Translations under genes and position numbers: made by a program
Part shown: positions 4,217-63,878 of the stretch, piece by piece
How the letters are laid out: each line of letters starts with the position of its first letter
How positions within the stretch are numbered: the first letter of the stretch is position 1
Notes under the pieces: generated by a model
The model's input: the letters and a program-made list of their open reading frames with translations, nothing else
Databases searched by the model: none
What the model was told of the DNA's origin: nothing
DNA from: Thalassia testudinum
Taxonomy: Eukaryota; Streptophyta; Magnoliopsida; Alismatales; Hydrocharitaceae
Direction: 5' to 3'
Assembly: GCA_037157565.1 (NCBI GenBank)
Contig: JAZHRO010000019.1
Location: 20,709,001-20,773,000, forward strand
Length of the DNA: 64,000 nt

Positions 4217-5907
4217 ACACCCCAGACCCTGCCGCAGAAGGCAAGCTTGATTTTGACGGAGATCCCTTCCAAATTCCTCCCTCTCCCATCTCCGGCCAAA
4301 CGACCCACAAGCTCCGGCGACCTCCTCCCCTCCTTCTCATCGCTCTGCTGCCATACCAGCAGCAGAGTCCTCTCCGCCGCTTCCTCCCGCGTCGCGCTGT
4401 ACCCCGCACGCGCGCTTCTGACCTCATCTTCGTCGCCGCTTCCTCCCTCAGTGTCTTTCTTCCCCGACGACGGCAGTTACGAGCCGTCCTCTTCGCCGCC
4501 TCCCTTCCTTCCAGACAACCCCAGATACGTTCTCCATCCTCTCCTCTCTTTTTTCCCCCAACTATTTTACTTGATTACCCCTCGACAGTACCTAACCGCC
4601 TCCATCTTCCTCGTCTCCGACCTCACTCCGGCGAGCCGCCCACACCACTCCACCACTCCACACAGCTCGCCAACCACCTCGTGAGCTTCGCCTCACCACC
4701 AGGAACCCATTCCACTCCATCACTGCCACTCCAGACCTCCACAAGCACCCCCCGACCAACCCACCATCTCCGGCCACAGGTTGACCTAGGCACGCACGCC
4801 TAGGCCGACCGGCAACCTGCAGCATCACCCACCGCCTTCGCCGTGCTACGGCGAAGGTTTCCAGCTATTCTGATTGGGCCAATAGGCCATTCTGTTGGAT
4901 GTCAGGTGTAAGCCCCAGCTGCCATTAACAGCCGAAGCAGCAGGGAGCTTGGAGCAGCAGCAGGCATCAGGCTTCCCAAGCGGCAGGTGCAGCAGATTCT
5001 CGCAAGTGTCGCGAAGCAACCGAGGCCAGCCAGTAGCGCCAGCAGAGTCAACAACCTGGGCAATCGAGCGACAAAACTCTGTGGGCGCGCGTGAAGGCGA
5101 GACCAGATAGTCCCACATCGTGGGATTGCAACACTCAGGTACCATATAAGTTGTTTTTGTGTTTTCGTTTAAGTGCCTCCGTAAGCACAGGGGTGAGGTC
5201 CCTCACTGCCCTCACACACGCCTCATCCGCGGCTTGACCTCGCGGATCTGGCAGATCCGACCCGACCTAGACCTACGCACTCCTCGCGCATCACCACTTG
5301 CCGGTGTGCCTGGTCCCGGGTGCGAACCCGACCCGACTACCCGTGTGGCTCTGGGAGAGCATCCTTGAGTGCATTGCTTGAGAGAGAGAGACGCTTGGGT
5401 AGAGGGACGGGGATAGGTTTTTGCTACTGTGTGGTGTGTGCAGGAAGGAAGAACTGACCCAGGCAGCGAACACTTAGCGGCTGCAGAACAGGAAGAGAAG
5501 AAAGAAGAGGCTGTGTAGCAGTGAAAGGAGAAGTCTTCGCAGAGAAGAAGAAGAAGGAAGACAAGGCAGAAGAGAGAGAAGAACGAAGAAGAAGACAAGG
5601 GAAGACTGCAAAGAGATCAGAAGAAAAAGAAGAAGAAGAAAGAAGAAAGGCAAGGCAGGAGAAGAAGGAAAGATACCAGAAGCAAAGAAAGGAGAAGAGC
5701 CACGAAGAAGAAGAGAGAAAGAGAGATCACATTTAAGACGTCTGATACACAAATCAGACGTCCAATTCTACTTTTTTTTCCCAAAATTTTTTTTAAAATT
5801 CTCTCTTTGAATGAATTATATTTGCATTTAAATAGTTGTATTCTTTGGTTTTACAAAGTACTGAGATTGCTCCCTGTGATCGACCTCGGATACTCCGGTC
5901 TTCGAGT

Positions 5908-18380: not shown

Positions 18381-21032
18381 TGTAAAGACCCATCCCACTT
18401 TTATCCTTTTAAGACGTCTGGAGTCTCAGTCAGACGTCTAGACCCTTTCCCAGACATCTGAAAGTGAAATTTTTGTATGCACTCTGCGTTCTACGCACGG
18501 GCAACGAGCAGAACTTCTTTTCTGTCTCTCTCCTTTCTCCTCTTTCCTACCCGAACACTAATCCCTCAGCTATAAAAAGCCACCCTCCCTTCCTCTCCTC
18601 TCCACTCCACCACCACCACACCCTACCTTCACTGCTGCGAGCGAGGGTGAGTGAGAGAGAGCGAGAAAGAGGAGAAGTGCAGGAGGAGGCCAAGGTCGAG
18701 AGCTTCGGTGGAAGCTCGTCAGAGCTCGTACGGCCACCACAGGCATGTATGGGAGGAGGAGGGAGTCCGGAGCAGCGTCCTCGACCACCTACAGCAGTTG
18801 GAGCTGCAGTGGAGCGAGGAGAAATGCGGCAGAGCATGGCGAGGAGCACTAGGAGCACGTTCTGATACTGGAATTTTTCCAGTATCAGATGTCTGGAGTG
18901 CAGTCCGGATGACTGCTGAGCATCTGCACGTCTGGAGTCAACACCCGACGTCTGAAAGCAACTGTATCGCAAAGGTACGCTCTTTCTGCAGTTACGGCCA
19001 TGCAGGCCGCACCGTAGAAGATATGCCGGCCTGATTTTAGGTGGCTACTCTGTTGTACGTAGGAGCAGCCTTGGGAAGGAGCACGAAACGTCCTCCCACA
19101 CACTTTCGGATGTCTGACCTACTCACCAGATGACTGAAGGTCCTTCCAGACGACCAGAGGAGTGGTCCGACGTTTGGAACCGCTTTTAGACAATCGCAGG
19201 GGAGTCCTAGACATCTGAGGACATCGCAGGAAGTTGAGGTGAGATTCTATAACTTTTAAGACATCTAGACTTGTTTCCAGACGTCTGATTTTGGTCAGTA
19301 GACACGTTTTTGACCCGTTTGGGTTCCGATCGGGATCTGTTTTACGTAAATGAAGTATTTGTGGTTTCCTTGTGAGTTTTTCTACGTACTACAAACCTTT
19401 ATACACTATTTTGAATCTTCCTTTGTGATGTATTCCTTGGTATAGGATTTTGACTTGCTGCGTGTTTGGGGCTCGCAAAGACGCCTGGGTCTACGGTTCA
19501 AGCCCCATTACTCTCGGATTGTCTGGTAGAGTGGTCTACCCCTATTAATCTTATTAAATAAGAATGTATCTGTGGAATTAGCCAACTGGAAACCTAGGAT
19601 GTGGCATGAACCCCAGGACAGAGAAATGAATAAACCAATTGTACTGTATGATTGTATTTGTATACATGAATAAGTTAAACTGCTAGCCATTGCCTGTAAT
19701 AAAGTGAGCTGCCTATTAGAATGTGAGATGCTTGAGATAAATGAACAATTACCTATGAAATCATCAGTTGCATTTATTAAATTGTGGAAACATGAGCTGC
19801 CTGTATATAAATGAGAACTGAATTGTGAATGATGGAATCTAGATCGAGAAAATGTGGTGAACATGAGCATGAACCCTACGGGGAGTTAGGAGTAGAGCTC
19901 CTGTGGTTAGATGGAAAATATGAAATGTGGACGGGAAGTGTGACGACCCTTGAGTACGTGGTACCAAGGAGAGCAATTATCCCTTTTTTGTGCAGAGCGG
20001 AGCTAGCCGCCCTTGGGTTGGGACCCAGGGTTAGGATTGGCCACTCTACACCGACTTCTATTGGCCCTATGTACATGGTGCCGAGGCGAGCTACTAGTGT
20101 AGGGAGGGAGGTAGCCACCTAACAGGGCACAGGGTTCAGCTAGCCACCCTACACCGACTTGTTAGGCCCTTTGGGCAAACTGGGGTAGTCAGACGAGGGG
20201 CGCGGACTGTGGAGGGGGGAGACCCCTATTAAAGAGAGGGCTAGGCCTTATACTATTATGTGCTGTATTTTGGGCGTACCCGCTAGCGGAAATGACTGAC
20301 CGCGTGTTAGTGTGGGGTAGCTACCCATGCGCTTACCATGCGTGCTGTAGTCATCGCTACGTCTTGACAGTTACCTCGGGGTGGTCGACTGGGTGTAGGA
20401 CTACCACGGGGGACTCTTCCGGCTAGGAGAGCACCACGTGTACCTTCTACTCTTCAGAAAAGACTGCAATCAAGATCGTTCCCACGAGGAACATGCAAGA
20501 TCAAGAAAATCTGAAAGTTGATAAAACGGGGTGAAAAGGAAATGCATGTAAAATAAAATAACTAGAAAAGATAATTAAACCTATTACTTTTACTGCATTA
20601 GATAGTATAGTTACCACTCTACTTAGCGTTCGCTGACTCTGTCTCTTTCATAACACTGTTCAGGTCCAGGAGTTGAGCAGCTCGAGCTTTCGGCTGCGGA
20701 GGGTGCTGGGCCTAGTCGAGCCCAAATGTAGTTTTTTTGCTCTTCTTTTTGTACGCCCTTACTGTTGTAGTGAGTTTCTGACTTTTAGTTGCTATTGTTG
20801 TTTCTGTTACTTTCGTTTCCGTTGTCTCTGTTGTTGTGGTGGTATGTATTGGAACAATAGTTTTACTTTCCTTTACTGCTTTGCTCATTTTTACTACTTA
20901 GTTATATTGCATATGTGAATGTGGTTCACTTTCCTACTTTTTGGTTATTTCTTGTTGGACGACTGGGTCTTGGGATTAGTTGAGGTGAGTCAGTCTTGGG
21001 TCCTGTAGGGATCCGGGAACTGGGTCGTAACA
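18381..21032 (+). repeat. T1 3' LTR (Tekay/Del-like)
   Basis: A 2652-bp LTR starting TGTAAAGACCC and ending GGTCGTAACA. TATA box TATAAAAAG at 18571-18579. A near-perfect hairpin (arms of 13 bp) lies at 18861-18889, followed by an array of CAGACGTCTG-type sites: units at 19107, 19127, 19147, 19167, 19187 and 19208, and others at about 18886-18960 and 19258-19287. Homologous LTRs are T2 (41853-43620) and T3 (45902-63878, minus). Confidence 0.85.
18571..18579 (+). promoter_or_regulatory. T1 LTR TATA box (TATAAAAAG)
   Basis: TATAAAAAG lies 190 bp inside the LTR; T2 has TTTATAAA at the matching place (42024-42031). The AGACGTCT pair upstream (18411-18440) and the phased array downstream flank this promoter. 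Confidence 0.6.
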
Positions 21033-33231: not shown

Positions 33232-34763
33232 TGAAAGAGCGATCTTCGTTTTTGATAAAAACTTTATCATGAAATGACGTGTCGTATGTGATCGCATGGT
33301 AGAAAATCACTTTTGAAAACATTTTAATTCTCAGAATCTAACAACGAAAATAGTTAGGTCATCTCCATAGGGAGGAATTAGCCTATTGCAATGATTAATG
33401 ATGACTTATCTATTTGGTAATATCGATGGATGCTCGTTCGAACTCTTGAAATGTTATTTCCAATCTAATTCAACCTTCTATGCAATTACCTCATATCAGG
33501 AGGGTTCTCATGCAAAACTTTCTTAATATAATATTTAGATACATAAACGAATAGTGTTCCTCAATGACACTTGATGGTAAATTTTAATTGGAGGAGAAGT
33601 AGAGGATTTCTCCACTCTCCTCCTCGTGTGAAGGATCGGGTGTGGCTGGCTGCAAGAGTCGTCGGAGGAGTTGGGTCGGAGGAGAGGAATACTCTAGTGG
33701 TGGTGCAGCGGTGAGTGGTCATCGGAGGTCGCTGACTGACGAGGAAGATGATCTTGGTGATGGGTCCTAAGGAGGCCGTGCGCGGGCGTCGGCTGGTGGC
33801 GTGAAGCGGAGGGGAGCAGTGGTGGAGTGAGGGTGTCTCAATCGTGGTGTCAACAACGAGAACGAAGACCAGAGGTGTTCGCTCGGCGAGGAAGATGGTC
33901 GGACGGTGTGGACTCCAGCGACCTGATGGTCGTGTTGGCGAGGTTGGAGGTTGATCGGTGTGGCTGTGCGTGGCCGTGCATGGGTACTGCAGAGCTCGAG
34001 GGGGGTGCCGGTGGTGTTTGCGTCGAAGATGGTGGTCGGTGGTGGTGGTTGTGAGGAGATGACGAAGGGAGGAGTTTGGGTTCTTTTGTGGGTTGCAGGT
34101 GGTGTTGTGGGGAAGAAGACTAAGGAAAAAGAAGCGGATGGGTGTGATGATGGTGGACTTGGTTTAGAGGGAGTGTGGGCTCGATGCTGTCACCACGTAG
34201 CCATCGAATAGGATGTCATGGCAGTCAACGGAAGGCGATGGTGCGCAGGAGATGGAGGGGAATGGAGTACACAACAGCCACAGTGCAAGCCCTGTCCATG
34301 GTGTACACAGTTTCCATGGTAGTAGAGGTGGAGAAGAAGTCCCCACCAGGGGGAGAGATCCTTCCCTCGGTGGACGTAGCTTCTTTTTAAACAAAAACCT
34401 CCTCCTTTTCCTTCAGCCGCAAGTGTCTCCAACTACTCGCGACGATCACGAGTGGTTGGAACGGCAGATAAGCATGGGCGGTTTCTTCTTCAGACGTCTA
34501 ACTAGAGCATCTGACATCTTAAAAAAATGTAATGCTATGAATTTGTGATAGCAGTTCCAGACGTCCAATCAAAGTCGAAAACGTCTCATAGAAGTAAAAA
34601 TGAGTGCCTGATTCTTGTACCTAGCCTGCATTCATCAAATAAATTATATTATCATAACATATGTTATTAAATGTAAAATTGAAGCATAAAATTAAATGCA
34701 GGCCAAGGTGAATTGCCATATAACTCCTAATTAATTAACAACTAAAAACAAATAATTAAATAG

Positions 34764-36466
34764 TGTTGGTGCTAGAGCACCACGATCATTTGTTTTGATG
34801 ATAACAAAACACGTGTCATTTAACATTTGCACTTGGAGTCTTAGATTTCAGGTCAATTGCAAATGTAGACGTGTTTAGACGGAATTCGAGCTCGCTTCCA
34901 GGACGGATTGGAGGAGCTTGATGGAGAACAGAGGAGATTCACGAGGAGCGCTAGATTTAAGATGGAAGGACAAGAAGAATAGGATAGAATTTTGTTTAAT
35001 CCTTTCATGTACTTTTATCTTTATTTTGGCTACTCTTTTTATTTCCTTAGAACATTATGTTAAAGAGCCTCAAAGTACCCTAACAGTAGTCTTAGGAACA
35101 CCTGCACAACCCTAGGATACTTAGGTTTTCTTTAGAATACTTAGAAAACCAATATAGGGTTCAAACAGAGTTTCCAAACGTCTAATTCCCAAATCAAACG
35201 TTTGATAAAGTGTTTTAAGACGTCTGACTGTTGATTCAGACGTTTGATAACTATTAGGCTGGACTTAGTGTTCTGTCTGATGAAATCAGACGTCCAGACC
35301 TTAAACCAGACGTCTCAGGAGATGTCTGATGACTTTGCCAGACGTCCAATTAGTGGACCGTTGGCTGGCTTAGCGAACAGTCAAGAATGTGACCATTAGA
35401 GCCTTATCAGACGTCCATAGGACTTTCCAGACGTCTGGACCGTTTTGCCTCGGCTGACCCAAAATCTCTTCTCAGAGATTTTCTAGCCGTTGCAACGTTT
35501 GGAAATCCATTCCCACAAAAAGTAGGTTTCCAGACATCCAGACATAGTGCCAGACGTCCTATATGTCATCTGATGGACTTGCACAAGAACCCTGTTTAGA
35601 TCTGATTCAAGTCAGGAAGGAACCCGCCCAAAATCAGACGTCTGACCTTGGAATCATACGTCTTAAAGTGAACTTCCAGACGTCTGATGCTAGAATTAGA
35701 CGTCTGATAAGCCTGTCAGAGCAATGATTGTTCCTGATTTCGGGCTGATTCACTTGGGCTTTGTACCCAACGGTTATGGAAGCTTTTCTAAGCCTTCCAA
35801 AGCCTTCCTAAGGCCTCTATAAATAGAGGGGAACCTTTGCAACACAAAGACACCAAGATACACAAGAAACACTTTGTAATACACTTTCCACTCTCTTGTG
35901 TCCTAGCTAGCTCTTGCTCTCCAAGCTCAAGCTCCATTCACTTGAGAGCATCAAGCTGTTGCGCACCCGCTCTCCCGTTGTTGTTCACGAGAGCGATGTT
36001 GCGCCGTCGCGTGGCACACGCATCCGCGTTGTCGACGCACTCCTTTCAAAGGGAAGCATCCTATTTCCTATAGAAGCTTAGGTTAAATATTACTTTGTTG
36101 GCTCTATAGGATTACTTGTTTTATCTTTGTTATTTGGTTGGGTATTCGCTTTGTGAATTCCCGTCTCCTTCGCGAGACAAAATCCTTCTCGAGAAGAGAA
36201 GGAGTTGAGGTACGCTACCCTCATCTAAGTAGCGTGGTTGTAATTGAGGTTGAATCACCCTCGTTTTAAAGTGATTTGGTTTAGTGGATTTTGATCAACT
36301 TGGTTGATCGGAAAATCCTAACTCGAGAGGGTTAGGTGGTGGTTTTCACCCGGTTTGGGTTTCCACCTAAAAGTAATTGTGTACTCGTGTCATTGTCTAT
36401 TTTGTGAGATTGTTTATATTTATTTCCGCAATTATTTCGTCACCCCTCTTAGTAGGGAAAACTACA
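34764..36466 (+). repeat. M1: solo LTR, possibly Ty1/copia SIRE/Maximus-like
   Basis: A 1703-bp sequence from TGTTGGTGCTAGAGCACC to GGAAAACTACA with perfect TSD AATAG (34759-34763 and 36467-36471). The tip contains the hairpin GGTGCT-AG-AGCACC. TTTGTTTTGATGATAACAAA near the start recalls SIRE/Maximus LTRs, hence the tentative lineage. TATA box TATAAATAG at 35818-35826. Upstream of it (35165-35710) lies a dense array of CAGACGTCTG-type sites. M2 (60154-61862) is a second copy in the opposite orientation. Confidence 0.85.
35818..35826 (+). promoter_or_regulatory. M1 LTR TATA box (TATAAATAG)
   Basis: A strong TATA match about 110 bp downstream of the last palindromic site; M2 has the same box at 60796-60804 (minus). 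The palindrome array thus occupies the position of an upstream promoter or enhancer. Confidence 0.65.
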
Positions 36467-36511
36467 AATAGTACTTAGGCTAAATAATAATCCACAAAAG
36501 TGGACTTATCA

Positions 36512-38706: not shown

Positions 38707-41329
38707 TGTTTGTCGTGTTGAATCAGGTTTTAAAAGTATTGCGTTGTAGTACAGTCGAAATAGCATTCAAAATAGATATAACTTTATTACTCAAAAAGGT
38801 TTCCGAGGTCGAACACAAGGTGCAAATTGGTATTTAAAAATCAAGATCACAATTTAAACTGAAAGAAATTGCAATAGTAGTAGTATCAGAGTGCAAAAAT
38901 ACGGGAGTAAAATGGTGACGTAGATCACCAAATACTCCAACAATATCACCAAATAATTCAATGTATATGCAATGGAAATTAGAATCTGTCATCTGATTCC
39001 TTAATCAGACGACTTAAAGTGCCTGATTTCTTCTTCTCTCTCTCTACCTTCTTCTCTCTACTTTGGTTTCCTTCTTGAAGTCCTTCTCTTTCTCTTCTAC
39101 TTTTCTTCTGCGATCCTTCTCTTTCTCTTTAGCTTTCTCTGTCTTTTGCCTTTGCTTCTCCTTCTTCTTCCTTCTTCTTCTTCCTGCCTTTACTTTTCTT
39201 CTGCCTTGTCCCTTAGCTACGCTGACCTTCTCTTCTTTCTTCTGCCTTAAGTCTTGCGGTCCACTTCTTCTTCTTCTTCTGGCTTCCTCTTCATCTTCAG
39301 ACTGTGGCTAATTGTTGGTTGGAGAACCCTGTAGCAAAACCCTACCACTACCCATGCGCAGCTCTCCTCACTTTCTCTCTTAGGATTCGCTCTCCTAGAG
39401 CCACACAGGAATTCGAGTAATCGGGTCGGGTGCGTACCTGGGCCCAGACCCACTGGCGTGAGGTAGTGGGTGAGGAGTGCAGTCGGGTCGGGTCAGGCCA
39501 GGTCCACGGGGCATGTTCGTGGATGAGACCAGGTCGGGTGAGTGGGACCACACCCCGTGGTAACTGAGGCCATAAGGCTACTTCACTTTTTCCCTTTATA
39601 CAGGTGCGGGCGCACTTTCACTTTCGAGGTGGGACTAAATGTCCCACCTTCCTCTCACGTGCGCCTGGGCTTAGCGGAACTTGGAGCTGCAGTAAGCTTG
39701 CTTCAACCTCCACAACAATGGCGGAAGGGTGCCTAAACCTGAGAACACAAGAACGGCCTCATGGCCACGTCAAAACCCTCAAAGAGGGTCGTCGGAGGAC
39801 GATGAAGGTGCTGGGGGTGTTGGCGTGGCGTGGTAGTGCTTGTTAGTGCGTGCCTAAGGCATACTATGTGCGAGTGTGTGGGTGTGTTCGAGGGGGTGTT
39901 TGGGTGAATGGCGCGGTGCGTGGAGTGAGGGGAAAGGATTAGTGAACCGAGGCAAAGGTCGTGGGCTTGTCGACGAGGGGTGGGGTGGCCTCGTCGGAGT
40001 TGATGGTCGGAGATGGAAGGGATGGAGGTGATGGAGGTCGGCAGTGGTCGACTTTGGAGGATAAAGGGTGGAGAAGAAAGTAGAGGGGAGAGGGAGCTTA
40101 TCTGGGAGGTCAAGGGACGAAGGGGGTGAGCGGAGGCATCGGGTCTAGTGTAGCCGACGCCGGGGACGAAGGCGGCTCCTATGAGGTGAGATCAGCGAGG
40201 ACTAAGAGAGGGAAGCGCCTCCTGGTATGGCGAGACGCGGACGAAGTCAGAGAAGGTGGATCCATCGCAAGTATGGCAATCAGACGATGAGGAGAAGCAG
40301 GGGATGTTGCCGGACGTCGAGGAGCCTATAGCTGTGAGGAGAGGATAGGAATTAGGGGTAGTCACGGCTGAAATCGAGCATGGAGAGATTGGAGAGATTT
40401 GGACTCCTTTAAATAGAGCTCTGGAGGTCGGTTAGGGCTTGGGAAGCTTGCAATGGAAGCTTGTTAGGCTACCCACATCTCTCATGCATTTGCATGAGAG
40501 ATTGGGAAAGAATCAGGGATCAAAGATAGGTTCAGATTGGAGGGAATTTCTCAGAGAATCTCCTTTCCAATTTTGGAAGAGATTCTCTGAGAAATCAAAG
40601 AGATCCCCTTTGTCAAAGGTCGGCGGAGTAGGTATCCTCCATGATAATGGTGAAGGGACCTACTTGTGTAGACGATGAGAAAGGTAGGGGGCTGGTTGTT
40701 AGGGTTTTTGAAAGTTAGGGGTAGAAATGTAATTATGCTGGACCTTTTTGCAAACTAGGTCAAGGAAAATTCATCTTGGGTCCAAATTTTGGTACAAACT
40801 TAATTTTGACCTAAGGAATTCAATGGTGAATTTAGATTTTGAGTTTTACCATGTTTGATTGGGAAATTTATGCAAAAACCCAATTTAGGGTAAATATTTA
40901 TCTAGGACCCCATTCAAGGTCAAGATGGGTTCTAATAGCCAAATTGAAGGTTCTAAACCCTAGAGAATATTTTTCTATGATTTTTATAGGATTTAAGTGA
41001 ATTTTATCCTGACCAGAACCTTGGTTAATCAAGTGGGTATGTTTTTAGGGTTTCAAGAAGTCATTTAATTCATAGAACTCACACAAACCCTCTTATGCCA
41101 AATCCAACCCACTTACTATCTTATTAAGACCATTTGACCTTTGTTTAGCCCTTGATAAAATCGATGGTTGTACTACATTGGTAAAATTATAGTTTTATCC
41201 CTAGTTTCTTGTGTTTCTCTCAGAAAGGTTATGTAGTGAATTATGACCTTTAGTTGGTTATGTAGGAGCATTTATTCTCTTCATTGGGTCAAAATGAGTT
41301 AGTTAGGGCTCATGATGGTGTTCCCATCA
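38707..41329 (-). repeat. Element B 5' LTR
   Basis: Partner of 24373-27120 with many substitutions and one deletion of about 105 bp near 39665. TATTTAAA at 40408-40415. Upstream of it on the minus strand are a 17-bp perfect inverted repeat (arms 40546-40562 and 40579-40595) and a hairpin (40472-40506). Confidence 0.9.
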
Positions 41330-41852: not shown

Positions 41853-43620
41853 TATAAAGACCCATTTTGTCCTAAGCCTTTTAAGACATTTGGACTGTCG
41901 GTCAGACGTCTAGAAATTGAAATTTTTGTGCAAGCCTTCGCGTCTGCATGCGGGCGGCGCGCAGACAGTACCCTCTTTTTCTTCCCTTCTCTCTTCCCTC
42001 CTCATACGAACCCTAACGCCCTCTTTATAAACCCCTCTTCCCTTCTCTCGTTCTCCCCACTCCACCACCAGCCACCTTCTTCTCTTCCTCTCCACCCCAG
42101 CGAGAAGAGCTAGCAAGAGAGAGAGTGTGAGAGCGGCGACGAGGAGGAGTGGCATGAGGAGAGGAGGAGGAGCTTGAGCTTGTGAGCTCGTGTCGGAGCT
42201 TGCCGGAGAGCGCACGGCTGGAGCGGCACATGCGGGAGGAGGAGAGCGTTGGGGGAGTCATCCTCGACACTACTGCAGCCGGAGCTACAGGCGAGGAGGC
42301 GAGCCGTGGCTGCGCGCGGCGAGAGCGAGCAGGAGCAGGTTCTGGTTTTGGGTTTTTCCCAGAATTAGATGTCTGGAGTGACATCCAGATGACGGAGTGG
42401 ACGTCTGGAGGCGACTCCAGACGTCTAAAGATAGATCTTCGCGAAGGTACGTTCCCTTTGCAGATACGACCATGCAGGTTGCTCCGCAGCTACGCTTTGC
42501 GTGGCTTATTTGAGAAGATTTTGCTGTCCTGTGCAGGGATTGCTTCGGGAAGGCGCGAGACACACCCTCCCACACATTTCAGATGTCTGGGCAGCTTATC
42601 AGACGGATGGAAGCACTCCCAGATGTCCGGAGAGGAGGTCGAACGTCTGGAGCTGGGTCCAGACGGTCCAGAAGAGGTCCTAGATGTCTGAGGTCTACGC
42701 AGAGCCTGAGGTGCATTTCTGGACACTTTTAAGACGTCTGGACATTGTGCCAGACGTCTGATTTGAGTCAGTAACCCTATTTTTGACCCGTTTACGGTTC
42801 GTTTGAGGTCCATTTTATGCAAACTAGATATCGATGTTTTCCTTGTGAGTTCCTCTTCTTGTTAGAAGTCTTTCTATACTACTCTGAATGTTCCATTGTG
42901 ATTGTTCCTTGTTATAGGACTTCATTCCGTTGCAGGTTCGGGGCTTGCTGAGGCCTGTAAGCCTGTTGTTCGAGCCCCCAATACTCCTGGGTTGTCTGGT
43001 AGAGTGGCTTCCCCTAATTTAATTATAAACTTGAATGCATGTGTGGATTGAATAACTAGAACCTAGGATATGGCATGAATCTTAGGACAAGAAGTACTTG
43101 AAATGTCCGTATGCGTGATTGAATTGCAGTCCTGAACGAGTAGATAGAACTATTAACAACTGTTTGTTAATGAACAAGAGCTACCTGTGAGATATGAATT
43201 ACTTGTGCTAGTTAAACAGTTACATGTACCCTTACCTGTTGTATACATTAAATGATAGAATACGTGATGCATGTATATAACCTGAGAATGGAAATGTGAA
43301 TGATAGCAATATGAGATGCATGTGTATAACCTGAGAATGGAAATGTGAATGATGAAACCTGGTACGGAATGACATGAGAAATATGAGCATGAACCCTATG
43401 AAGAATTAGGAGTATAGCTCCTGGAAATAAATGGAATGGATCTGGAAATGTGAGTGGGGAAGTGTGTTGGCCCTTGAGTACGTAGTACCAAGGAGAACGA
43501 CTGTCCCCTATTTAATGTAGAGCAGAGCTAGCCACCCTTGGGTTGGGACCCAGGGTTAGGATTGGCTACTCTGCACCGACTTCTTGTCCCTCGTGTACAC
43601 TGTACCAGGGAGAGCTATGG
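41853..43620 (+). repeat. T2: truncated Tekay-like LTR
   Basis: Homologous to T1 18381-20100. The expected tip TGTAAAGACCC reads TATAAAGACCC. TATA box TTTATAAA at 42024-42031; decayed hairpin at 42340-42368; phased palindrome units at 42580, 42600, 42620, 42640, 42660 and 42681. A 49-bp direct duplication begins at 43266 and 43315. The LTR stops at 43620 where a TGTCGG tip begins; the missing end is not in this window. Confidence 0.8.
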
Positions 43621-44509
43621 TGTCGGACCCGAATAGGTTGTTAATATGATGATTTTATCGTTGAAGTGTGTATAGTGGTTAACCTAAATCGGACCTAACC
43701 ATCTCTTTACAAAATTTTTAACCTGGCCTACTTGATTTTATCTTGTCACTTTTAGGCCCAGGGTTGAACTCAGGGAAGTGGGGTTACAAGTCGAGTTTCT
43801 ACTCCTTTCCTTTCCTACAACGAGTCTCTTCCTTTCGTTTATTATGTTTTTGGTGTTTTTTCTATTTAGATTTTTTTTTTGGTAATCTTTGTCCTTGAGG
43901 CACACCCTCAAAATTGGGTTCTTGGCTTTGAGCCAAACTAGAGTTCCAAAATGGGTTTTGCTATTCGCAAGACGGAGACCTACAAGTCAAAGATTATCTT
44001 TTCTCTTTTATATATATTTTTTATCTTTTTACTAACATGAAAGCGAAATAGAAATAAAGTAAATACAATATATATATATAGGTATATATTATGTATATAA
44101 AGGGGTGGGGGTGGAGGCAGAGATGGAGTGTAGCACGGTGTCGAGTCGGTCGTCGTCTAGAAAGACGCAACCGATAGGACGAGGTGCCGCGTGGAGTGTG
44201 GGATGGATGGTGGAAGATGTATGTAACCACGCTTTTTGTACGCGTGTACCGAGGAATATCAGCAACTGGTGTAGATATTCCCACGATACCACGTATGGTA
44301 AGTAATGTGAAAATATATGTATATATGTATGTAAATATATCTATATATATATATATGGTTATAAATATATAGGTATATATATATGTATATATCTATAGGT
44401 GAATATATATGTATATAAGTATATGTATATGTGTATGTAAATATATACGTATAGAGAGATATTTGTATATATATATATAATACTATATAGATGTATATAG
44501 ATATATATG

Positions 44510-45071: not shown

Positions 45072-45134
<63 letters not shown>

Positions 45135-45135
45135 C

Positions 45136-45204
<69 letters not shown>

Positions 45205-50763: not shown

Positions 50764-53700
50764 TCAAGGGGAAAGGAGGATATGAGATGCCTCAGCCAAA
50801 TCAGTGGAAGTTACATCAATGAACGGCTTGAGTCTTTGACCATTCACGATGAAAGGTTCAGAATCGTGGCTGAGTGGACTGATTTCGATTGCTCCATTTC
50901 CAAAAACCTGTCGGACCAAATATGGTCCGACCCACTTAGATCTCAGTTTTCCTGGGAAGAGTTTGAGTCGGGCATCAAAGAGTAGGACCTTTTGACCAGG
51001 ATGGAAGATCTTTCTTGAGATGTGTTTGTCGTGGAAGGCTTTAACCCGCTCCTTGTAGATTTGCGAGTTCTCGTACGCGTCTGTGCGTAATTCATCGATC
51101 TCGCTGATTTGGAGTTTTCTGTGGGTCCCAGCCTTGGAAAGATCTAGATTACAGTTCCGTACTGCCCAATAGGCTTTATGCTCCAGTTCGACGGGAAGGT
51201 GGCATGCCTTTCCGTACACCAATCTAAAGGGAGACATGCCCAATTGGGTCTTGTGGGCGGTCCTATAGGCCCACAATGCTTCCGGAAGTCGGGACGACCA
51301 GTCCTTCCTGTCAGGTCGAACAGTGACCTGTAGGATTTTCTTGATCTCCCGATTCGACAGCTCAGCTAGACCATTAGTTTGGGGGTGGTAAGGAGTAGAG
51401 ATTCGGTGAGACACCCCGTATTTGGTCATCAGTGACCTAAACTGAGCATTTGTGAAATGGGTCCCCCCATCAGAGATTATTGCACGAGGAATCCCGAACC
51501 TTGAGAAAATGTGTTGATGAATGAATTTGAGAACGATTTTGTGATCACAGGTTCGGGTCGGTATGGCTTCGATCCATTTGGACACGTAGTCCACAGCCAA
51601 CAGAATGTATTCGAAACCATCCGAAACAGGAAAGGGGCCCATAAAATCAATCCCCCAAACATCAAAGATTTCGCATACTAGAATCGGTTGCATAGGCATC
51701 ATGTTGCGATGGCTCATGTTGCCCAAAGTCTGGCAACGACTGCATGCCTTGCAATGACTGTATGCGTCTTTGAACAGTGTGGGCCAGTAAAAGCCGCACT
51801 GGAGGACTTTTGATGCGGTTTTATGCCCGGCAAAATGGCCACCGCATGCCTGGTCATGGCAGAAAGAGAGGATATTGTTGACTTCCCCTTCCGGGATACA
51901 TCTCCGGATGATCTGATCGGCACCTATGCGGAAGAGGTACGGGTCTTCCCAAATGTAATACTTGGCATCGGAGCGTAATTTGTCTTTCTTGGCCTTCGGC
52001 CAATCGGACGGGGTCTGATGAGATGCCAAGTAATTTACAATATTAGCAAACCATGGAAGGCTAGTACCAATAGTCAGCAGGTGCTCATCGGGAAAATGCT
52101 CAGTGATGGGTCCGGAAGGGTCTATCATTTCAGAAGGAAGACGGGACAAGTGATCAGCTACCACGTTTTGTTTTCCCGCTTTATTGCGAATCTCGAGGTC
52201 AAATTCTTGCAACAGCAAGATCCATCGGATCAATCGAGGTTTCGCGTCCTTCTTTGCAAGGAGATGCCTCACAGCCGTGTGATCCGAGTATATGATGACA
52301 TGGGAACCCAGAAGGTATGATCTGAATTTCTCTAGGGCAAATACTACAGCTAGCAGCTCTTTCTCAGTAACTGTATAGTTACGCTGAGCCTCATCGAGTG
52401 TTTTGCTGGCGTAGTAAATGACCACAGGTTTCTTGTCATTTTTCTGCCCCAAAACTGCTCCTACAGCGAAGTCGGATGCATCACACATGATCTCAAAGGG
52501 TTGAGACCAATCAGGGGACTGTAGGATCGGGGCTTGGGTGACTCGGTCACGCAGGATTTCAAATGCTTGAGTGCATTCCTTGGAGATTTCGAAGGGAACA
52601 TCCTTGGAGAGAAGAGTGGTCAGGGGGCGTGCGATTTTTGAAAAATCAGGGATAAATCGTCGATAAAAACCGACATGCCCTAAAAAGGATCGGATGTCCC
52701 TGATCGAGCTAGGCATAGGAAGGCGAGAAATCAGATTAACCTTAGCTCGATCCACTTGGATACCTTTCTCCGAAATTGAGTGTCCCAGGACAATTCCCTC
52801 AGGCACCATGAAATGGCTCTTTTCCCAGGAAAGAACCAAATTCACGTCGATGCACCGCCTGAGTATCTGGACCAAGTGTTGGAGGCAATCGTCGAATGAT
52901 GCTCCGAAAACTGAAAAGTCATCCATGAAGACTTCCAGATAATCACCTACCATATCTGAGAATATGGCAAGCATGCATCGCTGAAAAGTAGCGGGTGCAT
53001 TGCAAAGACCAAAAGGCATCCTTCGGAAAGCGTATGTTCCGAAGGGGCAGGTGAATGTGGTCTTTTCTTGGTCCTCAGGATGGATTGCCACCTGGTTATA
53101 ACCGGAGTACCCGTCAAGAAAGCAGAAGAACCTATTTCCCGCTAGTTTTTCGAGAATTTGATCAATGAAGGGTAGTGGGAAATGATCCTTCTTCGTGGAG
53201 GAATTGAGTCGACGGTAATCTATACAGACTCTCCACGAGTTGGCTAATCGGGTAGGAATGATTTCTCCGGTCTCAGTCGTTATAGTGGTGAGTCCTGCCT
53301 TCTTAGGCACGACCTGAATTGGGCTCACCCAACGACTATCGGAGATCGGGTAGATGATCCCGGCATCTAACCACTTGATGATCTCCTTTTTCACGACCTC
53401 CTGCAGATTGGGGTTTAAGCGTCTCTGCATTTCACGAGAAGGTCGTGTGCCCTCTTCTGAATAGATATGATGAGTACAATAAGAGGGACTTATTCCAGTC
53501 AAATCATCGAGGGTCCATCCGATGGCTCTGCGATGTTGCTGGAGGACAACAATCAGACGGGATTCCTGTTCAGGATTAAGGTTGGAATTGATGATCACAG
53601 GAAGGGTCTGATTAGAACCCAAAAAGATGTATTTCAAATGAGCAGGAAGGGGTTTCAATTCAAGGATGGGGTTTTCAGCAGCAGCGGGTGGTTCAGTATA

Positions 53701-56463: not shown

Positions 56464-57362
56464 GCACAGTTGGGAGAGGTAAGTTTAGAAGGTGATGGAC
56501 CCAATCAAGACACCCAAAAATGTGTTGGGTGACTATAGAGGTGCGGGGCAGATGGACCCCTTGATCAGAAAGATCGTCCACCTGAGAATTACCTGGGCAG
56601 CCAGAGAGGGAGAGTCCCGCGAAGACCCCTACACGGTAGAGCGTCCCCACGGGTTACAGGGTTTCCCCCACCCGACCTCTCTTGTCACTGCGGTTCCAGG
56701 TAGACCAGAATGGGGATCTTGACCTCTTAAGTCTACCAATTTTAAGATCAGGGTGCTTAAGGTTTCACTTGAACTTTAGTCTTTTTAAGTGCAAAGAGTG
56801 ACCTAATTTAAGGTTGGTTAACCCAAGGGGTCAACTTTACCTATTGTTCTCTTTAAGAGCTTTTAGGTCCTGTCTTTTAGGGTTCAAGTGTTTAGAGAGC
56901 CAATTGTTTTAGATTTTCTTTGAATAGGTATTTTCAGACTAGGGCTTGGGCACACTTCATTTGGTTTTCTCAATTCTTGCTTAAGGAGTGTGTCTCTAAA
57001 TCCCTAGTGTTGGATCCTAGGTTGGCTCTACTTGGTCCAGTTAACTCTTTGTTGGGTAATTAGGGCTCAAGCAAGAATGTGTTAGCCCTTAAATACCCTT
57101 AATAGTGTGCAGAAATAATGAGTTGAAAACATGCAACTTTTATGGTTACTAAATATGGAAGACAGGTTAGCCCTATATTGCTTGTTCTTTTCTTTTCTTC
57201 CTCTTTAGAGTGTAGGGGTTAATAGTGAGAGAAAAGATTTTACCTGTCTTCGGAGTAGTTGTGTGGTTGCTTGTCTTCTTGAGTTCCTATAGCTGCACAA
57301 AAGAGAGGAGATTATTAGAACTTAAAAGATACAGGAATGTTTACCTCTAGAATAGCCGTTGC
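56464..57362 (-). other. Element C leader
   Basis: About 0.9 kb without ORF. The 240 bases next to gag are conserved with A and B and include the hairpin arms CACCCAA and TTGGGTG (about 56507-56530). The rest is AT-rich. Confidence 0.65.
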
Positions 57363-57380
57363 TCCCCGGCAACGGCGCCA
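57363..57380 (-). other. Element C primer-binding site, tRNA-Asp
   Basis: Minus strand TGGCGCCGTTGCCGGGGA, 18 of 18 bases complementary to the plant tRNA-Asp(GUC) 3' end including CCA, three bases from the LTR. Confidence 0.95.
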
Positions 57381-57383
57381 AAA

Positions 57384-60130
57384 TGGTGATGGGCGTCGGT
57401 TTCTACCGGTTTGAGTTATGTCGTTGTAGTAAAGCCGGTTGTTACCAACGTATCATATAAAATTTTATTACTCGGAAAACTGAAAGAGTTCCCGAGGTCG
57501 AACTCAGGGAGCAAGTTGTATTCTAGAGATATACAAGTTCTATTACAAAAATAAAGAGAGAGAGATGAAAAATTGGCTTCTTCTTCTTTTCTTCCTCTTT
57601 GTCTTTGGTTCTTCCTGTTCTTCTTCTTCTTCTTCTTCTTCTTTTTCTTCTGCTTTCTTCAGATTTTTCCCCTCGTGCTCTTCTTCTTGTTTCCTTTCTT
57701 TCTTTTTCGTCAGATCATCTTCTTCTTTTCTTGCTTCTTGCTTCTCTTCATTCCTTCTTCTTCTTTGTCTTCACCTGCCTTGACTTCTCTTTTTCTTCTT
57801 TCGCGATGGCCGTTGCTCTTCCTTCTTCTTCAGCCTGTCTTCTTTGGCTGCTGACCTTCCGTCGTCTGCGCCAGTGCTGAGACGACTTAACAATGCCTTC
57901 GCTACAGTGCAGCAGCTCCTTCTTCTTCAGCGGGTCTGCTTCTTCTTCTTTGGCCTGCACACTTCAGAGTTTATTCGTCAAGGCAAAAACCTACTCTACC
58001 CCCCTCCCCCGCGTATCTCTCTCTCTGAAATCACTCCTCGGAAGCTCTCCCAGAGCGCTATCGGGTAATCGGGTTCGGGTCAGGCCCGGGTCCAGGCCCA
58101 CCGGCGTGCGTGGTGGGCGAGGAGTGCAGGTCAGTCTAATCGGGTCGGGCCAGGTCCGCGGAGCGTGGTCACGGACGAGGCCGAGTCGGGTCGGGTCGGG
58201 TGAGAGGGACCTCACCCCGTGGTAACTGAGGCAAACAGCATACGGCAGTTTTTCAATTTATGTGTCCGCGCGCCTTTGAGAGATTCCGAGGTGGGACTAA
58301 ATGTCCCACCCCAATTCTCCTACGCCTGCAGCAGGGATGGTGCTCCCAATTGCATCGGCTGTTGAGGCGTACAGCTCCAATCGAGGGCCAGGGTGTGTGC
58401 GTGAGACTCTTCCGCGCTGGCCGTGGCTATTCAATCTGGGATATCTCGGCTTGGAGCAACCTCGAGCAGGCTTCGAGCTTCCTCGACAATGGCGGCCAAG
58501 GCCTGGAACCTGAAACCAATGGCACGGCCTCTCGGCCAAATCAGACAGGCGGGGGACCTTCGCCGTGGCACGGCGAAGGTGGTCAGGGGGTCTGCAGGGG
58601 GCGAGATGGAGCTGTTAGGTCGTCCTAGGTCAGACTGTGAGCGAGGGAGTGGGTGTGTTCGGTGGGTCTGCAGAGGGTGTTTGGTGGGAAGTGGAGGGGC
58701 GGAAGAGGATCAGGGTGAGGAGGCGGAAGTTCTGCGGTGGTCGGCGAGCCGTGTGGGTCGCTGAGGTGATGGGAGCGGCTCGCCGGAGGGTGGTCGGAGG
58801 CGGAGAGGATGAGGGTGAACAGGGTCGGTAGAGGGCTTAATTGACTAAATCGAAAGCGGGGAAAGAAAGAGGAGGAGAAGGGGAGTAAGTCTAACTTAAC
58901 TGCAGGGACGAAGGGGGGAGGAACAGGGCGACAGTCGTATCGACTGTCGCCGGAGAAGATGATGCTCAGAGAGAGGGGCGGCGGCGAGCAGAAGGCTGGA
59001 GAGGCGCCAGCTGGGTGCGGCGTGGCGCGGGAAGAGCAGGGGAGGAGGTCTCTGCTGCTGGTAGTGCGGCAGAGCGAAGAGGTGGAGGGAGAGGAAGTCG
59101 CCGGAGCTGGTGAGCGTCTGCCGGAGAAAGAAGAGACGAAAGCTGGGGGTTTTCTCCGTCAGATCCAGGCTGCCTTGGTCGGTGGAGCGGCGGGGGGTAT
59201 TTATAGGGTTGAAGCAGGGAGGAAGGCGGAGGGAGACGACGTGTCTCCCTCGCCGGAGCATGGTCGGAATTCGAACCCATACCGTCCGTGCGTTCGCACG
59301 GCCGGTATGGGGGGCTGCAATGACCATGGGGGTGCTCCTGCGACGGCTGACAACGCAGGGCACCCCCGGTACACATGCCAGGTCCTCCACCTCACCCTGC
59401 GCGGCGCCATGCTCCGCGCAAGGTCGCCGGAGCATGGTGCTGGCAGGGTTTTGCAGGAGGGACCTGTTTGCAAAGAACGAAGGAGAGTTAGGGGCCTAAA
59501 TGCGAGGGTTCAAAAGTTGAGGGCCAAAGAGTAAATATATGAGGACCAAAGTGTAAAGTCGGTCAAGGAGGTTTCTTTTTAGGCTCAAGTTTTTATACAT
59601 GACTAATTAGAACCTAAGGAATCTGATGGTAAATTTCATTTTCATATTAAACCTTGTTTGACCGGTCAATTTGCGTAAAGACCCAAATTAAGTTATTAAT
59701 TGGGCATGGTTCTCAATGTAGGTCAAAATGGGTTCTAAAGGCCAAATTGAAGGTTCTAAACCCTAGAGATTATTTTTCTATGAATTTTAGAGGGTTTATT
59801 CTATTTTTACTTTGCCTCGAACCTTGTGAATTGAAGTGGGTTGTTTTAGGGTTACAGATTATCATTTGGTTCCTTGGAAGTGCTGTAGCCCTTGCTAGAT
59901 CATCTCATCCCACTTTTATTCTTATTAAGCTGTTTTGACCTATGTTTGGGCCCTGAATTACCCTGTATGCAGATTATACTGGTAAAATTGCACTTTTACC
60001 CCTTATGGCTGGTTTTCTTCTCAAACTCAGAATTCTCTGAGTTAAGCCTTTCCTTGAGATATGTAGGAGCTTTTATCCTTTGTATTGGGTCAAAATGAGC
60101 TAGTTATGGCTCATGATGAGGTTCTCATCA
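57384..60130 (-). repeat. Element C 5' LTR
   Basis: Copy of 46551-49297 at a constant offset of 10,833 bp with one visible mismatch (58742). TATAAATA 59198-59205; hairpin 59276-59310; poly(A) signal 57464-57469; tRNA-Asp 5'-end complement 57420-57430. Confidence 0.95.
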
Positions 60131-60153: not shown

Positions 60154-61862
60154 TGTAGTTTTTCCTACTAGGAGGGGGTGACGTAATAATTGCGGAAATA
60201 AAATATAAACAATCTCACAAGATGCAATCACACAAAGTACATAAAGTATTTTTAGGTGGAAACCCAAACTGGGTGAAAACCACCACCTAACTCTCGAGTT
60301 AGGATTTTTCGATCAACAAAGTTGATTAAAATCCACTAAACTGAATCACTTTAAAACGAGGGTGATTCAACCTCAATTACAACCACGCTACTTAGACGAG
60401 GGTAGCGTACCTCAACCCCTTCTCTTCACGAGAAGGATTTTGTCTCGTGAAGGAGACGGGAATTCGCAAAGCGAATACCCAACCAAATAACAAAGATAAA
60501 ACAAGTAATCCTATAGAGCCAACAAAGTAATATTTAACCTAAGCTTCTATAGGAAATAGGATGCTTCCCTTTGAAAGGAGTGCGTCGACGACGCGGATGC
60601 GTGTGCCACGTGACGGCGCAACGTCGCTCTCGTGAACAACGGCGGGAGAGCGGGTGCGCAACAGCTTGATGCTCTCAAGAGAATGGAGCTTGAGCTTGGA
60701 GAGCAAGAGCTAGCTAGGACACAAGAGAGTGGAAAGTGTATTACAAAGTGTTTCTTGTGTATCTTGGTGTGTTTTTGTGTTGCAAAGGTTTCCCTCTATT
60801 TATAGAGGCCTTAGGAAGGCTTTGGAAGGCTTAGGAAAGGTTCCATAGCCGTTGGGTACAAAGCCCAAGAGAATCAGCCCGAAATCAGGAACAATTATTG
60901 CACTGACAGGCTTATCAGACGTCTGATTCTGGCATTAGACGTCTGGAAGACCACTTTAAGACGTCTGATTTCAAGGTCAGACGTCTGATTTTGGGCGGGT
61001 CTCTTCCTGACTTGGATCAGATCTAAACAGGGTTCTAGCGCAAGTCCATCAGACGACATACAGGACGTCTGACACTATGTCTGGATATCTGGAAACCTAC
61101 TTTTTCCGTGGGAATGGATTTCCAAACGTTGCAACGCCTAGAAAATCTCTGAGAAGAGATTTTGGGTTAGCAGAGGCAAAACGGTCAATTATCAGACGTC
61201 TGGAAAGTCCTATGGACGTCTGATAAGGCTCTAACGGTCACATTCTTGACTGTTCGCTAAGCCAGCCAACGGTCCACTAATTGGACGTCTGGAAAAGTCA
61301 TCAGACGTCTCCTAAGACGTCTGGTCTAAGGTCTGGACGTCTGATCAGATAGAACTAACTATGTCCAGCCTAATAGTTATCAGACGTCTGAATCAACAGT
61401 CAGACGTCTTAAAACACTTTATCAGACGTCTGATTTGGGAATTAGACGTCTGGAAACTCTATTTGAACCCTATATTGGTTTTCTAAGTATTCTACAGAAA
61501 ACCTAAGTATCCTAGGGTTGTGCAGGTGTTCCTAGGACTACTGTTAGGGTACTTTGAGGCTCTTTAACATAATGTTCTAAGGAAATAAAAAGAGCAAGAA
61601 AAATAAAGATAAAAGTACATGAAAGGATTAAACAAAATTCTATCCTATTCTTCTTGTCCTTCCATCTTCAATCTAGCGCTCCTCATGAATCTCCTCTGTT
61701 CTCCATCAAGCTCCTCCAATCCGTCCTGGATGAGAGCTCGAATCCATCTAAACACGTCTACATTTGCAATTGACCTTAAATCTAAGACTCCAAGTGCAAA
61801 TGTTAAATGACACGTGTTTTGTTATCATCAAAACAAATGATCGTGGTGCTCTAGCACCAACA
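60154..61862 (-). repeat. M2: solo LTR, same family as M1
   Basis: A 1709-bp reverse copy of the M1 family from TGTAGTTTTTCC to AGCACCAACA, with perfect TSD GCTGA (60149-60153 and 61863-61867). TATA box on the minus strand at 60796-60804. Seventeen CAGACGTCTG-type units lie between 60916 and 61452 and are less decayed than in M1. Confidence 0.88.
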
Positions 61863-62502
61863 GCTGACAGACGTAACTGTGACTACGGCACGCGCGATAA
61901 GCACACAGGTAGCTACCCCGCACTGGCACGCAGTCAGCCGTTTCCGTTAATGGGTGCACTCAAAACACAGCATGGAACCGGTATAGGGCAGAGCCCTCTC
62001 AGTAACAGGGGTCCAATCGCTCCACAGTCCGCGCACCCTCGCCTGACTACCCTGGTTTGCCTAGTGGGCCTAACAAGTCGGTGTAGGAGGCTAGCAGAAC
62101 CCCGGGGCTCGTGGGGTAGCTAGTGCTCTCCCTACACTAGTATCTCCCCTCGATACTTCGTACGCGAGGACCAGCAAGTCGGTGTACAGTGGCCAAACCC
62201 ACCCTGGTCTCAACCTGAGGTAAATGTGTGCTCTCTTTGGTACCACGTACCCAAGAGACAACACACTTCCACGTTTCACTTTCTCGGTCCCATTCTATTC
62301 TCTTTCCAGGAGTTCTACTCCTAATTCCCCGTAGGTTCGTATTCTTTTTGTTTGGCCATTGTACGTTTCACTGTTCCAGTTTTACGTTCATACAACCCAT
62401 ATTCTCAATCATATTTATTCATTCATAACAGGCAGCTATTAATTTACATGCAGCTATTATTTCCTTTCCACTTTTCCAAGACTGGAATATTTATATATTC
62501 CT

Positions 62503-62705
62503 CTAGTTTTCCAGTCCTAGGATTCATGCCGTTCCCTAGGTTCTATCATTCAATCTAGTTTTCCAATCCTAGGATTCATGCAATACCCTAGGATCTATCA
62601 TTCAATCTAGTTTCTCAGTCCTAGGGTTCATGCAATACCCTAGGATCTATCATTCAATCTAGTTTCTCAGTCCTAGGGTTCATGCAATGCCCTAGACTCT
62701 ATTAA
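62503..62705. repeat. 52-bp tandem repeat, about 4 copies, inside T3
   Basis: Units start at 62503, 62555, 62607 and 62659, each beginning CTAGTTT and containing TCCTAGG.TTCATGC and CTATCATTCAAT; the last is partial. T1 and T2 have a single equivalent segment, so the expansion is specific to T3. Confidence 0.9.
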
Positions 62706-63065
62706 TTGTTCCACAATTGTAACAAATTATGCTAAATAATTTAAAAGCCACTCTACCAGCTACAACGGGAGTACTGGGGGCGTGGTCGGCAATCCCGCAC
62801 GCCACCGCAACCCCCAAGACTGCAATGGAACGAGGTCCTAACAAAAGGATCAAACACAAGGAGTTTCTCAGAATGGTATACAATTACTATAAATGGGTAG
62901 AGGATTTTATTCTGGAAAGAACGCAACTCGAAACGTGGAAAATGGACTTTGAACGGGCCCTAAACGGGTCAAAAATGACGAAACTGTCCAAAATCAGACG
63001 TCTGGAACCTCTTCCAGACGTCTTAAAAGGTGGGTTAGATTGTACCTTAGCTCTGTGTAGTCCTT

Positions 63066-63175
63066 CAGACGTCCAGAAGCCTGCTGAGGCATCTGGCTTA
63101 GTTCCAAGACGTCCGATTGTCACCTCGGACGTCTGGAAGTTCTCTCCGTCGTCTGGCACTGCGGCCAGACGTCTG
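63066..63175. repeat. Phased array of six CAGACGTCTG-type palindromes, 20-bp period (T3)
   Basis: Units start at 63066, 63086, 63106, 63126, 63146 and 63166, with exactly 10 bases between successive 10-bp units. The units are related (CAGACGTCCA, GAGGCATCTG, AAGACGTCCG, CGGACGTCTG, CCGTCGTCTG, CAGACGTCTG); the spacers are unrelated to one another. The core GACGTC is the plant C-box, an ACGT-type bZIP site. Confidence 0.85.
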
Positions 63176-63385
63176 ATTTACGTGGGATGGCGAGCCCTCG
63201 TGCCCTCCTGAGTGGAACTTGCGCACACACTCCTGCTCTCAGCACGACGAAGTGCAGACGAAGTCGCGGCAGACGGCTGCATGGCTGTACGCGCGAAGAA
63301 GGAAGAAGATAGAAATATCTTACCTGTCAGACGTCTGGACAGTCCTCCAGACGTCTTCACCGTCATCTGGTCGTAAGCCCAGACG

Positions 63386-63415
63386 TCTGGTTCTGGAAAA
63401 TTTTCCAGAACCAGA
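63386..63415. repeat. Perfect 30-bp palindrome in T3 LTR
   Basis: Arms TCTGGTTCTGGAAAA and TTTTCCAGAACCAGA. T1 has the same structure with changed bases at 18861-18889 and T2 a decayed form at 42340-42368. Confidence 0.9.
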
Positions 63416-63878
63416 GCCCGACTCGCTCTCCGCCCGCGATGCATGGTCGGGCCGCGCCCCGTCCGCTTGCTGCCCGAGCTGCAGCAGCCCCTCCGCGACA
63501 CCCCACGCCCGCCGCTCCCTCGCCGGCCGGCTCTAGATGCCCCGGTAAGCTCGAACCCTCGCGGTCGAGCTTCCCCCCTTCCGCTCGCAACCCTCCTTCC
63601 CGTACTCTCCCCTCGGCCGCTGCTGCCGCCGTTCCCTTGCTCGCTCACGCTCTCGTACTAGTAGGGAGAAGGAGAAGAGAAAGGCGAAGGAGATGAGGGT
63701 GAGGGAGAGGTCGAAGGGGCCTTATAAGGCCACGCAGGGAGAGAGAAAAAGAGCTGCGTGCCTACAGGAGGAGAGAGAGGAAAAGGAGGAACGAGAGCGG
63801 CGGGTGTAGTCTGCGCACGCAGGCGCGCAGACGCAACCCCGTACGCTGCAAAAATTTATTACCAGACGTCTGGGAAGG

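Follow-up and report, generated by a model that had tools for sequence, protein, structure and literature searches.

The window, that is the whole 64-kb stretch of DNA analysed here, is plant DNA crowded with nested LTR retrotransposons, whose features are collected in Table 1. The array at the origin of this study consists of six palindromic units at 63066-63166, as stated in the original prediction, and these units match CAGACGTCTG at 7 to 10 of 10 positions. The location of the array within an LTR had also been correctly anticipated. This LTR, Y3, has two relatives in the window, Y1 and Y2. The pattern extends further than that prediction had it: other LTR families in the window carry it as well.

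Table 1. Coordinates of the palindromic arrays and of the LTRs and elements related to them in the window.
Feature	Position	Strand	Remarks
Reported array, six palindromic units	63066..63175		20-bp steps; matches to CAGACGTCTG: 63066 (8/10), 63086 (7/10), 63106 (8/10), 63126 (9/10), 63146 (8/10), 63166 (10/10)
20-bp unit pair	62995..63024		same Y3 LTR; cap at the right end: CTTAAAAGG (CCTTTTAAG when read from outside inwards)
Units 63328, 63348, 63360, 63380	63328..63389		Y3; 20-12-20 arrangement
30-bp perfect inverted repeat adjoining the array	63386..63415	-	Y3; in Y1 18861-18889, in Y2 42341-42369
Y3, chromovirus-type LTR piece holding the reported array	61863..63877	-	diverged; homology to Y1
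Y1, relative of Y3	18381..20364	+	immediately after chromovirus pol remnants; units 18411-18460, 18886-19287
Y2, third copy of the Y LTR family	41856..43626 (start approximate)	+	units 41883-41912, 42366-42760
S-A, solo LTR, Sirevirus-like	60154..61862	-	TSD GCTGA; array 60916-61452 upstream of TATA 60804; sits in Y3
S-B, second copy of the S solo LTR	34764..36466	+	TSD AATAG; array 35175-35706; sits in W
W, solo LTR hosting S-B	33232..36511		TSD TTGAG; 20-bp pairs, both weak, at 34491 and 34558
E1, Athila-like Ty3/gypsy element	LTRs 3271-5993, 14255-16970	+	TSD GCTCC; LTR pairs and gag-pol homology
E1 20-bp pair near the LTR 3′ end	5735..5764	+	degenerate copy 16711-16740
E2, Athila-like element	LTRs ~46551-49297, ~57382-60130	-	LTRs 99.96% identical; TSD GTCAA; LTR pairs and gag-pol homology
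E3, Athila-like element	LTRs ~24370-27120, ~38707-41329	-	LTR pairs and gag-pol homology
E3 degenerate pair, placed similarly to that of E1	38986..39015	-	other LTR copy 24652-24681

The lineage of the Y family can be read from the surroundings of Y1. E1 interrupts an older gypsy element, of which the RT (1760-3019) and the integrase (17067-17981) are left on its two sides. In Pfam, pieces of the pol of this older element match the RVT_1, SH3_Tf2-1 and Chromo profiles, and a 44-aa piece at 18162-18293, just ahead of Y1, reaches 26.3 bits with PF00385 (cutoff 25.1). These matches identify the older element as a chromovirus, presumably of the Tekay/Del lineage. With a chromodomain after the integrase and then the LTR, Y1 is a chromovirus (Ty3/gypsy) LTR; from their homology to it, Y2 and Y3 would be chromovirus LTRs too. 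A Sirevirus as the host of Y does not agree with the remnants that precede Y1, where a gypsy RT and integrase are accompanied by SH3_Tf2-1 and Chromo domains. Y1 has an LTR-like start, TGTAAAGACCC, at 18381 and a TATA at 18571, about 189 bp into the LTR. Three units lie about 29-69 bp from the LTR start, and eleven, weak ones included, are found at 504-896, downstream of the TATA. Homology of Y3 to Y1 picks up again past nested insertions, at 46548-45902, Y3 being broken further left by S-A and E2. Within the Y3 LTR, Tandem Repeats Finder (TRF) reports a 52-bp unit repeated 3.9 times (62502-62702); it finds no array of this 52-bp type in Y1, and in Y2 an array of 49-bp units (43251-43353). An open frame on the plus strand (62723-63208), which runs antisense to the Y3 array, resembles a metagenome protein of 99 aa (60% identity), the one relative among 80 candidates, so that environmental sampling has picked up a related LTR.

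S-A and S-B, two 1.7-kb solo LTRs lacking pol, PBS and PPT, are 94% identical. On their sense strand, a TATA, CTATAAATAG, is found in the middle of the LTR, about 1059 bp into its 1709 bp, and the sequence near the 3′ end is rich in C (CACCCCCTCC). Sirevirus LTRs are marked by a mid-LTR TATA of the cTATAAATAg type and by a C-rich signal about 21 bp from the LTR end, according to the excerpts of PMC2829016 used here, and from this layout the S LTRs, which resemble those of Sirevirus copia elements, may be termed Sirevirus-like. S-A contains 18 units matching at least 7 of 10 positions, the 15 listed ones starting at offsets 411-938, and its array ends about 110 bp upstream of the TATA.

Three further elements are Athila-like, a name that we take from primer-site features. 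The pair of E1 lies about 1.5 kb downstream of the TATA. E2 is the youngest of the three; its nearly identical LTRs, its target site duplication and its open gag-pol frame designate it as a recent insertion. It has just a poor pair, seen in both LTRs (47026-47055 and 57859-57888) with the outer bases swapped (GTCGTCT..AGACGAC), which may be due to chance or be a diverged relative of the E1/E3 pair. E2 as a whole (46551-60130) looks nearly intact, with a gag-pol frame of 1906 aa. In a virus collection, no locus was found for the Athila RT piece in viral contigs, and the arrangement AGACGTCTG-N0-30-CAGACGTCT was found at 18 loci, none of them with a gap of 10. The full 12-mer pair had no occurrence in prokaryote and virus genome contigs. 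The collections searched being of prokaryotes or viruses, these absences say little about plants.

The palindromes are both overrepresented and strictly spaced. In the whole window, 91 sites match CAGACGTCTG at 8 or more of 10 positions, as compared with a mean of 23 and a maximum of 31 in 60 first-order Markov sequences. Among these sites, 28 pairs are exactly 20 bp apart. Second in frequency is a spacing of 42 bp, with 8 pairs; spacings of 18, 19 and 21 bp do not occur. The 60 Markov sequences contained no 20-bp pair, and 5000 jitters keeping the local density gave a mean of 1.24 and at most 6. With a laxer pair threshold, the 20-bp count rises to 48, the mean across the ordinary spacings from 11 to 60 being 1.8; there are then 2 pairs at 19 bp and none at 18 or 21 bp, and, if single sites of 7/10 are admitted, one 19-bp step turns up in Y1. 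Considered LTR by LTR with sites of at least 7/10, Y1, Y2, Y3, S-A and S-B have 7-8 twenty-bp pairs apiece, a number matched at any spacing from 10 to 70 in none of 3000 jitters. The two pairs of W (P 0.07) and the single pair in each LTR copy of E1 (P 0.78 and 0.94) are not significant on their own in this jitter test. An exact 20-bp period, as originally described, is true of the reported copy, but the length of its last step is not conserved: 41 bp, instead of 40, separate the counterparts of 63106 and 63066 in the two relatives aligned with it. Apart from this step and a small insertion in Y1, the units of the three Y copies are in register.

The recurring palindrome had been described as one of 10 bp. 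This holds for the core, but the site is longer. In the 28 pairs, the spacer begins with R and finishes with Y in 27 cases each, and positions 3-8 of the spacer are flat in composition. The palindrome thus extends over 12 bp, Y-CAGACGTCTG-R, with 8 essentially free bases between neighbours, and a matrix of 53 units from all families gives the consensus CAG-CTG. GACGTC is a bZIP-type core (C-box/ACGT), which the units share with the plant bZIP C-box; R before and Y after GACGTC is not the usual TGACGTCA, conserved R/Y flanks being found in the window instead of T/A. In the range up to 62 bp, spacings of 12, 20, 22, 32, 40, 42, 52, 60 and 62 bp are the more frequent ones. Distances other than 20 are best concentrated at periods of 9.5-10 bp (R 0.65 and 0.61) and less so at 10.5 bp (R 0.31), so the data do not bear out a 10.5-bp rule placing sites on the same face. 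By arithmetic, 20 bp corresponds to 1.9 turns at 10.5 bp per turn, or about 34 degrees between neighbours and about 170 degrees over six units. The idea that all sites lie on one DNA face can therefore be kept for a pair, but not for six units, which drift around the helix.

The ends of the arrays have features of their own. The inward-facing first base is A in just 2 of 70 units. At the outward-facing ends, in a comparison made post hoc, TTT is adjacent in 10 of the 13 cases where A replaces the first C, and in 4 of 39 other ends; the end units number 76 in total, and 52 without the 45413 pair and the duplicate copies of LTRs. A module, CACTTTTAAGACGTCTGR-N8-YCAGACGTCTGATTTT, can be recognized in Y and S, where it deviates slightly, and in degenerate form in E1 and E3. 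It could be a composite site or reflect a shared origin. The 20-12-20 arrangement is likewise found in both Y and S.

Conservation between copies of the Y family argues that it is the units that are maintained. When each Y copy in turn serves to define the units, the two remaining copies are in agreement at 77 of 98, 99 of 121 and 108 of 134 unit bases (79%, 82% and 81%), as compared with 80 of 156, 81 of 153 and 104 of 159 neighbouring bases (51%, 53% and 65%; Fisher tests 8e-6, 3e-7 and 0.003 for the three copies). The remaining aligned Y LTR agrees at 58%, 57% and 66%, far above chance, which indicates that the alignment is homologous and not just drawn together by the motifs. In the units of Y1 and Y2, several substitutions turn CG into TG or CA, as would be expected for methylated dead copies. 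Between S-A and S-B, divergence in the units (11/179) is not significantly below that of the array spacers (26/352) or of the rest (61/1166). Such similar rates are as expected for decay after insertion and lend no support to selection. Outside the units, the middle 8 bases of the spacers are no more similar to each other than shuffled ones (2.61 versus 2.68 of 8, P 0.9, 36 pairs). The original prediction, which had noted spacers sharing no sequence and had deduced selection for site and spacing instead of copying, agrees with both observations: spacers are at the shuffled level and units outlast the bases next to them. The data support the view that the units are selected, phase-locked sites and not copies of a 20-bp unit.

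We consider it reasonably probable that the arrays are cis-regulatory DNA of the LTRs, made of phase-locked sites to which a dimeric host DNA-binding protein would bind cooperatively, in an enhancer-like manner. Each palindrome Y-CAGACGTCTG-R would be the putative site of a sequence-specific dimeric protein of the plant host. Thanks to the 20-bp step, about two helical turns, neighbouring dimers might touch each other and bind cooperatively, and the spacers would be free because site and phase alone matter. Arrays thus occupied would act as an enhancer, located upstream of the TATA in the Sirevirus-like LTR; in the gypsy LTR, it would occupy the beginning of the LTR and the transcribed leader. 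A host origin of the factor is suggested by the sharing of the site between copia-like and gypsy LTRs, in one genome window, and an activating role by the fact that the elements keep the sites. Several observations fit this enhancer reading less well. Most of the Y array lies in the would-be transcribed leader, and the spacers have a slight inverted symmetry, for which protein sites alone give no reason. Relaxing the thresholds brings up a few steps of 19 bp, the pair of E2 is poor, and W and E1 are not significant alone. A broader version may be put forward tentatively, as a possibility that we hold to be somewhat doubtful. Unrelated lineages (Sirevirus-like copia, chromovirus and Athila gypsy) would exploit one host factor through a polar, phase-locked composite site, TTTAAGACGTCTGR-N8-YCAGACGTCTG, the 20-bp step being read by contacts between neighbouring dimers, and Sirevirus palindrome clusters would be one case of a general enhancer code of plant retroelements. 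With a strict spacing rule common to unrelated families, the question of the factor becomes testable. Should copia and gypsy elements depend on one and the same host factor, it would be a common switch of retroelement activity in the plant, and solo LTRs with the array would spread the sites of this factor.

Alternatively, the pairs may fold as stem-loops in the transcript, for packaging or translation, or as a by-product feeding small-RNA silencing. A 20-bp pair is automatically an inverted repeat, and all eight array segments tested fold strongly (z -3.7 to -8.2, as compared with -0.9 and -2.4 for two non-array segments), yet such folding already follows from the palindromes. Changes in the units tell more. 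Pairs were collapsed from 48 to 36 by removing nine S-B pairs and the second copies of E1, E2 and E3; three Y copies, whose counts are not fully independent, and the possible-chance pairs at 45413 and 47026 were kept. In this set, no double change is seen within a unit (5.6 expected) and 5 are seen across a pair (6.1 expected), raw values for all 48 pairs being 2 and 8, respectively. With compensation nil within units and not raised across pairs, it is the sequence that is kept, not the pairing. The spacers give a more nuanced picture. Their inverted symmetry is slightly above expectation (64 of 180 pairs versus 52, P 0.037; 39 of 105 versus 29, P 0.026, for the 21 pairs left with one copy per family), and folding weakens when spacer halves are re-dealt (-387.7 versus -413.7 kcal/mol, P 0.005), whereas shuffling the middle 8 bases alters the folding energy little (P 0.12). 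Moreover, loops of 7 or 9 would be tolerable in hairpins, yet spacings of 19 and 21 bp are missing among good sites. In the Y copies, an inverted repeat, TCTGGTTCTGG..CCAGAACCAGA, sits right before the first unit downstream of the TATA. Over its 11 base pairs, all 33 cells of the three copies remain paired, with two changes affecting both sides, as compared with 30-52% of cells after sliding; with only three sequences, however, the same values are attained in 107 of 500 shuffles. Weighing spacer symmetry and the kept Y inverted repeat against the absent compensation, the hairpin explanation is retained, although the compensation counts weaken RNA structure as the main constraint, and we judge it unlikely in this role.

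Another explanation would be an anti-silencing platform, to which a protein encoded by the element itself binds in order to lift silencing, as VANC proteins do. The original prediction had drawn this parallel with VANDAL transposons, and a dense short-motif array in non-coding DNA of a transposable element is indeed common to both cases (PMC5735166, in the part considered). There, the VANC21 motif YAGTATTAY is non-palindromic, has one orientation, has grown by tandem repetition and is specific to a family of DNA transposons. In contrast, the units of the window are palindromic, their spacers are at shuffled similarity with no sign of a tandem history, and the array is found in copia-like and chromovirus LTRs and, weakly, in Athila-like ones, a distribution difficult to reconcile with a family-specific factor. 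Furthermore, a Pfam scan of four long frames (two with retrotransposon polyprotein domains and two without match) and three pol pieces revealed no extra DNA-binding domain. The parallel with VANDAL is thus not supported, and a self-encoded platform appears very improbable.

It may also be imagined that one module, CACTTTTAAGACGTCTGR-N8-YCAGACGTCTGATTTT, was moved between LTR families by descent or recombination, then decayed, and is now functionless. The end-cap and outer flank are alike in Y, S, E1 and E3, and the 20-12-20 arrangement is common to Y and S. However, under neutral decay units would be lost as fast as spacers, which is not so between the Y copies, and we give this scenario little credence. 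Finally, a remnant of a 20-bp tandem repeat, which the regular step might evoke, can practically be dismissed: spacer similarity is at the shuffled level overall and separately in S-A (P 0.84), Y1 (0.10), Y2 (0.51) and Y3 (0.50), so the units do not share the similar whole repeats of a minisatellite, none of the 20 rows that TRF returns for the window spans 63066-63175, and aligned family copies, the proposed check for such remnants, contradict it with units at 79-82% and neighbouring bases at 51-65%.

Putative phase-locked sites for a host protein have to be viewed in the light of what is described in Sirevirus LTRs, a published precedent (PMC2829016) that the original prediction did not mention. 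These LTRs carry palindromic repeated motifs, the RM boxes (Bousios et al., 2010), of which Table 3 of the paper lists GTCGGACGTCCGAC for Usier and also CGGACCGTCCG for HOPIE. As in S, there are many palindromic copies with diverged flanks in the upper LTR half, upstream of the mid-LTR TATA; S-A has the 8 or more palindromic copies, so placed, by which RM boxes are recognized. The Usier core, CGGACGTCCG, differs from CAGACGTCTG by G for A in each half. The signature of RM boxes is CGG-CCG and that of the window units CAG-CTG. The array of S-A does not define a CpG island either, another trait by which RM boxes are recognized: its CpG observed/expected is 0.86 and its GC 0.45, with 0.89 and 0.43 in neighbouring LTR parts. 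RM boxes are given as Sirevirus specific among the Ty1/copia elements studied there, whereas the motif of the window is also present in Ty3/gypsy LTRs and downstream of the TATA. According to PMC2829016, RM boxes do not have in common a site to which one factor would bind, and its authors were unable to name a shared factor. No spacing rule for RM boxes is found in the excerpts considered, the word 'spacing' being confined to the title of a reference.

Palindrome clusters of maize Sirevirus LTRs are another point of comparison. The parts of PMC10760457 and PMC5311732 used here associate them with secondary structure and small RNAs, for which they are hotspots; the motif is CACCGGACNNNGTCCGGTG, and a role via RNA structure and small RNAs is proposed. 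A palindromic cis-region with strong predicted secondary structure is thus common to maize and to the window, but here the compensation counts disfavour RNA structure as the main constraint. The maize palindrome also occurs in Helitrons (PMC10760457), so that sharing across types of transposable elements was already seen for the maize word. Among the literature matches listed, none concerned CAGACGTCTG arrays in retrotransposons, 20-bp phasing or such a motif in Ty3/gypsy LTRs. Relative to the parts of these sources considered, the new elements would be the exact 20-bp phase, the end-cap (TTTAAG) and the presence of the array in both copia-like and gypsy LTRs of a single genome.

Two minor observations concern other parts of the window. 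On the strand opposite to the E2 gag-pol frame, 55759-55866 matches the Rfam family snoR71 with 44 bits; this family may be, or include, retrotransposon sequence. Between nested elements, a degenerate AT-repeat tract of about 950 bp occupies 44313-45264.
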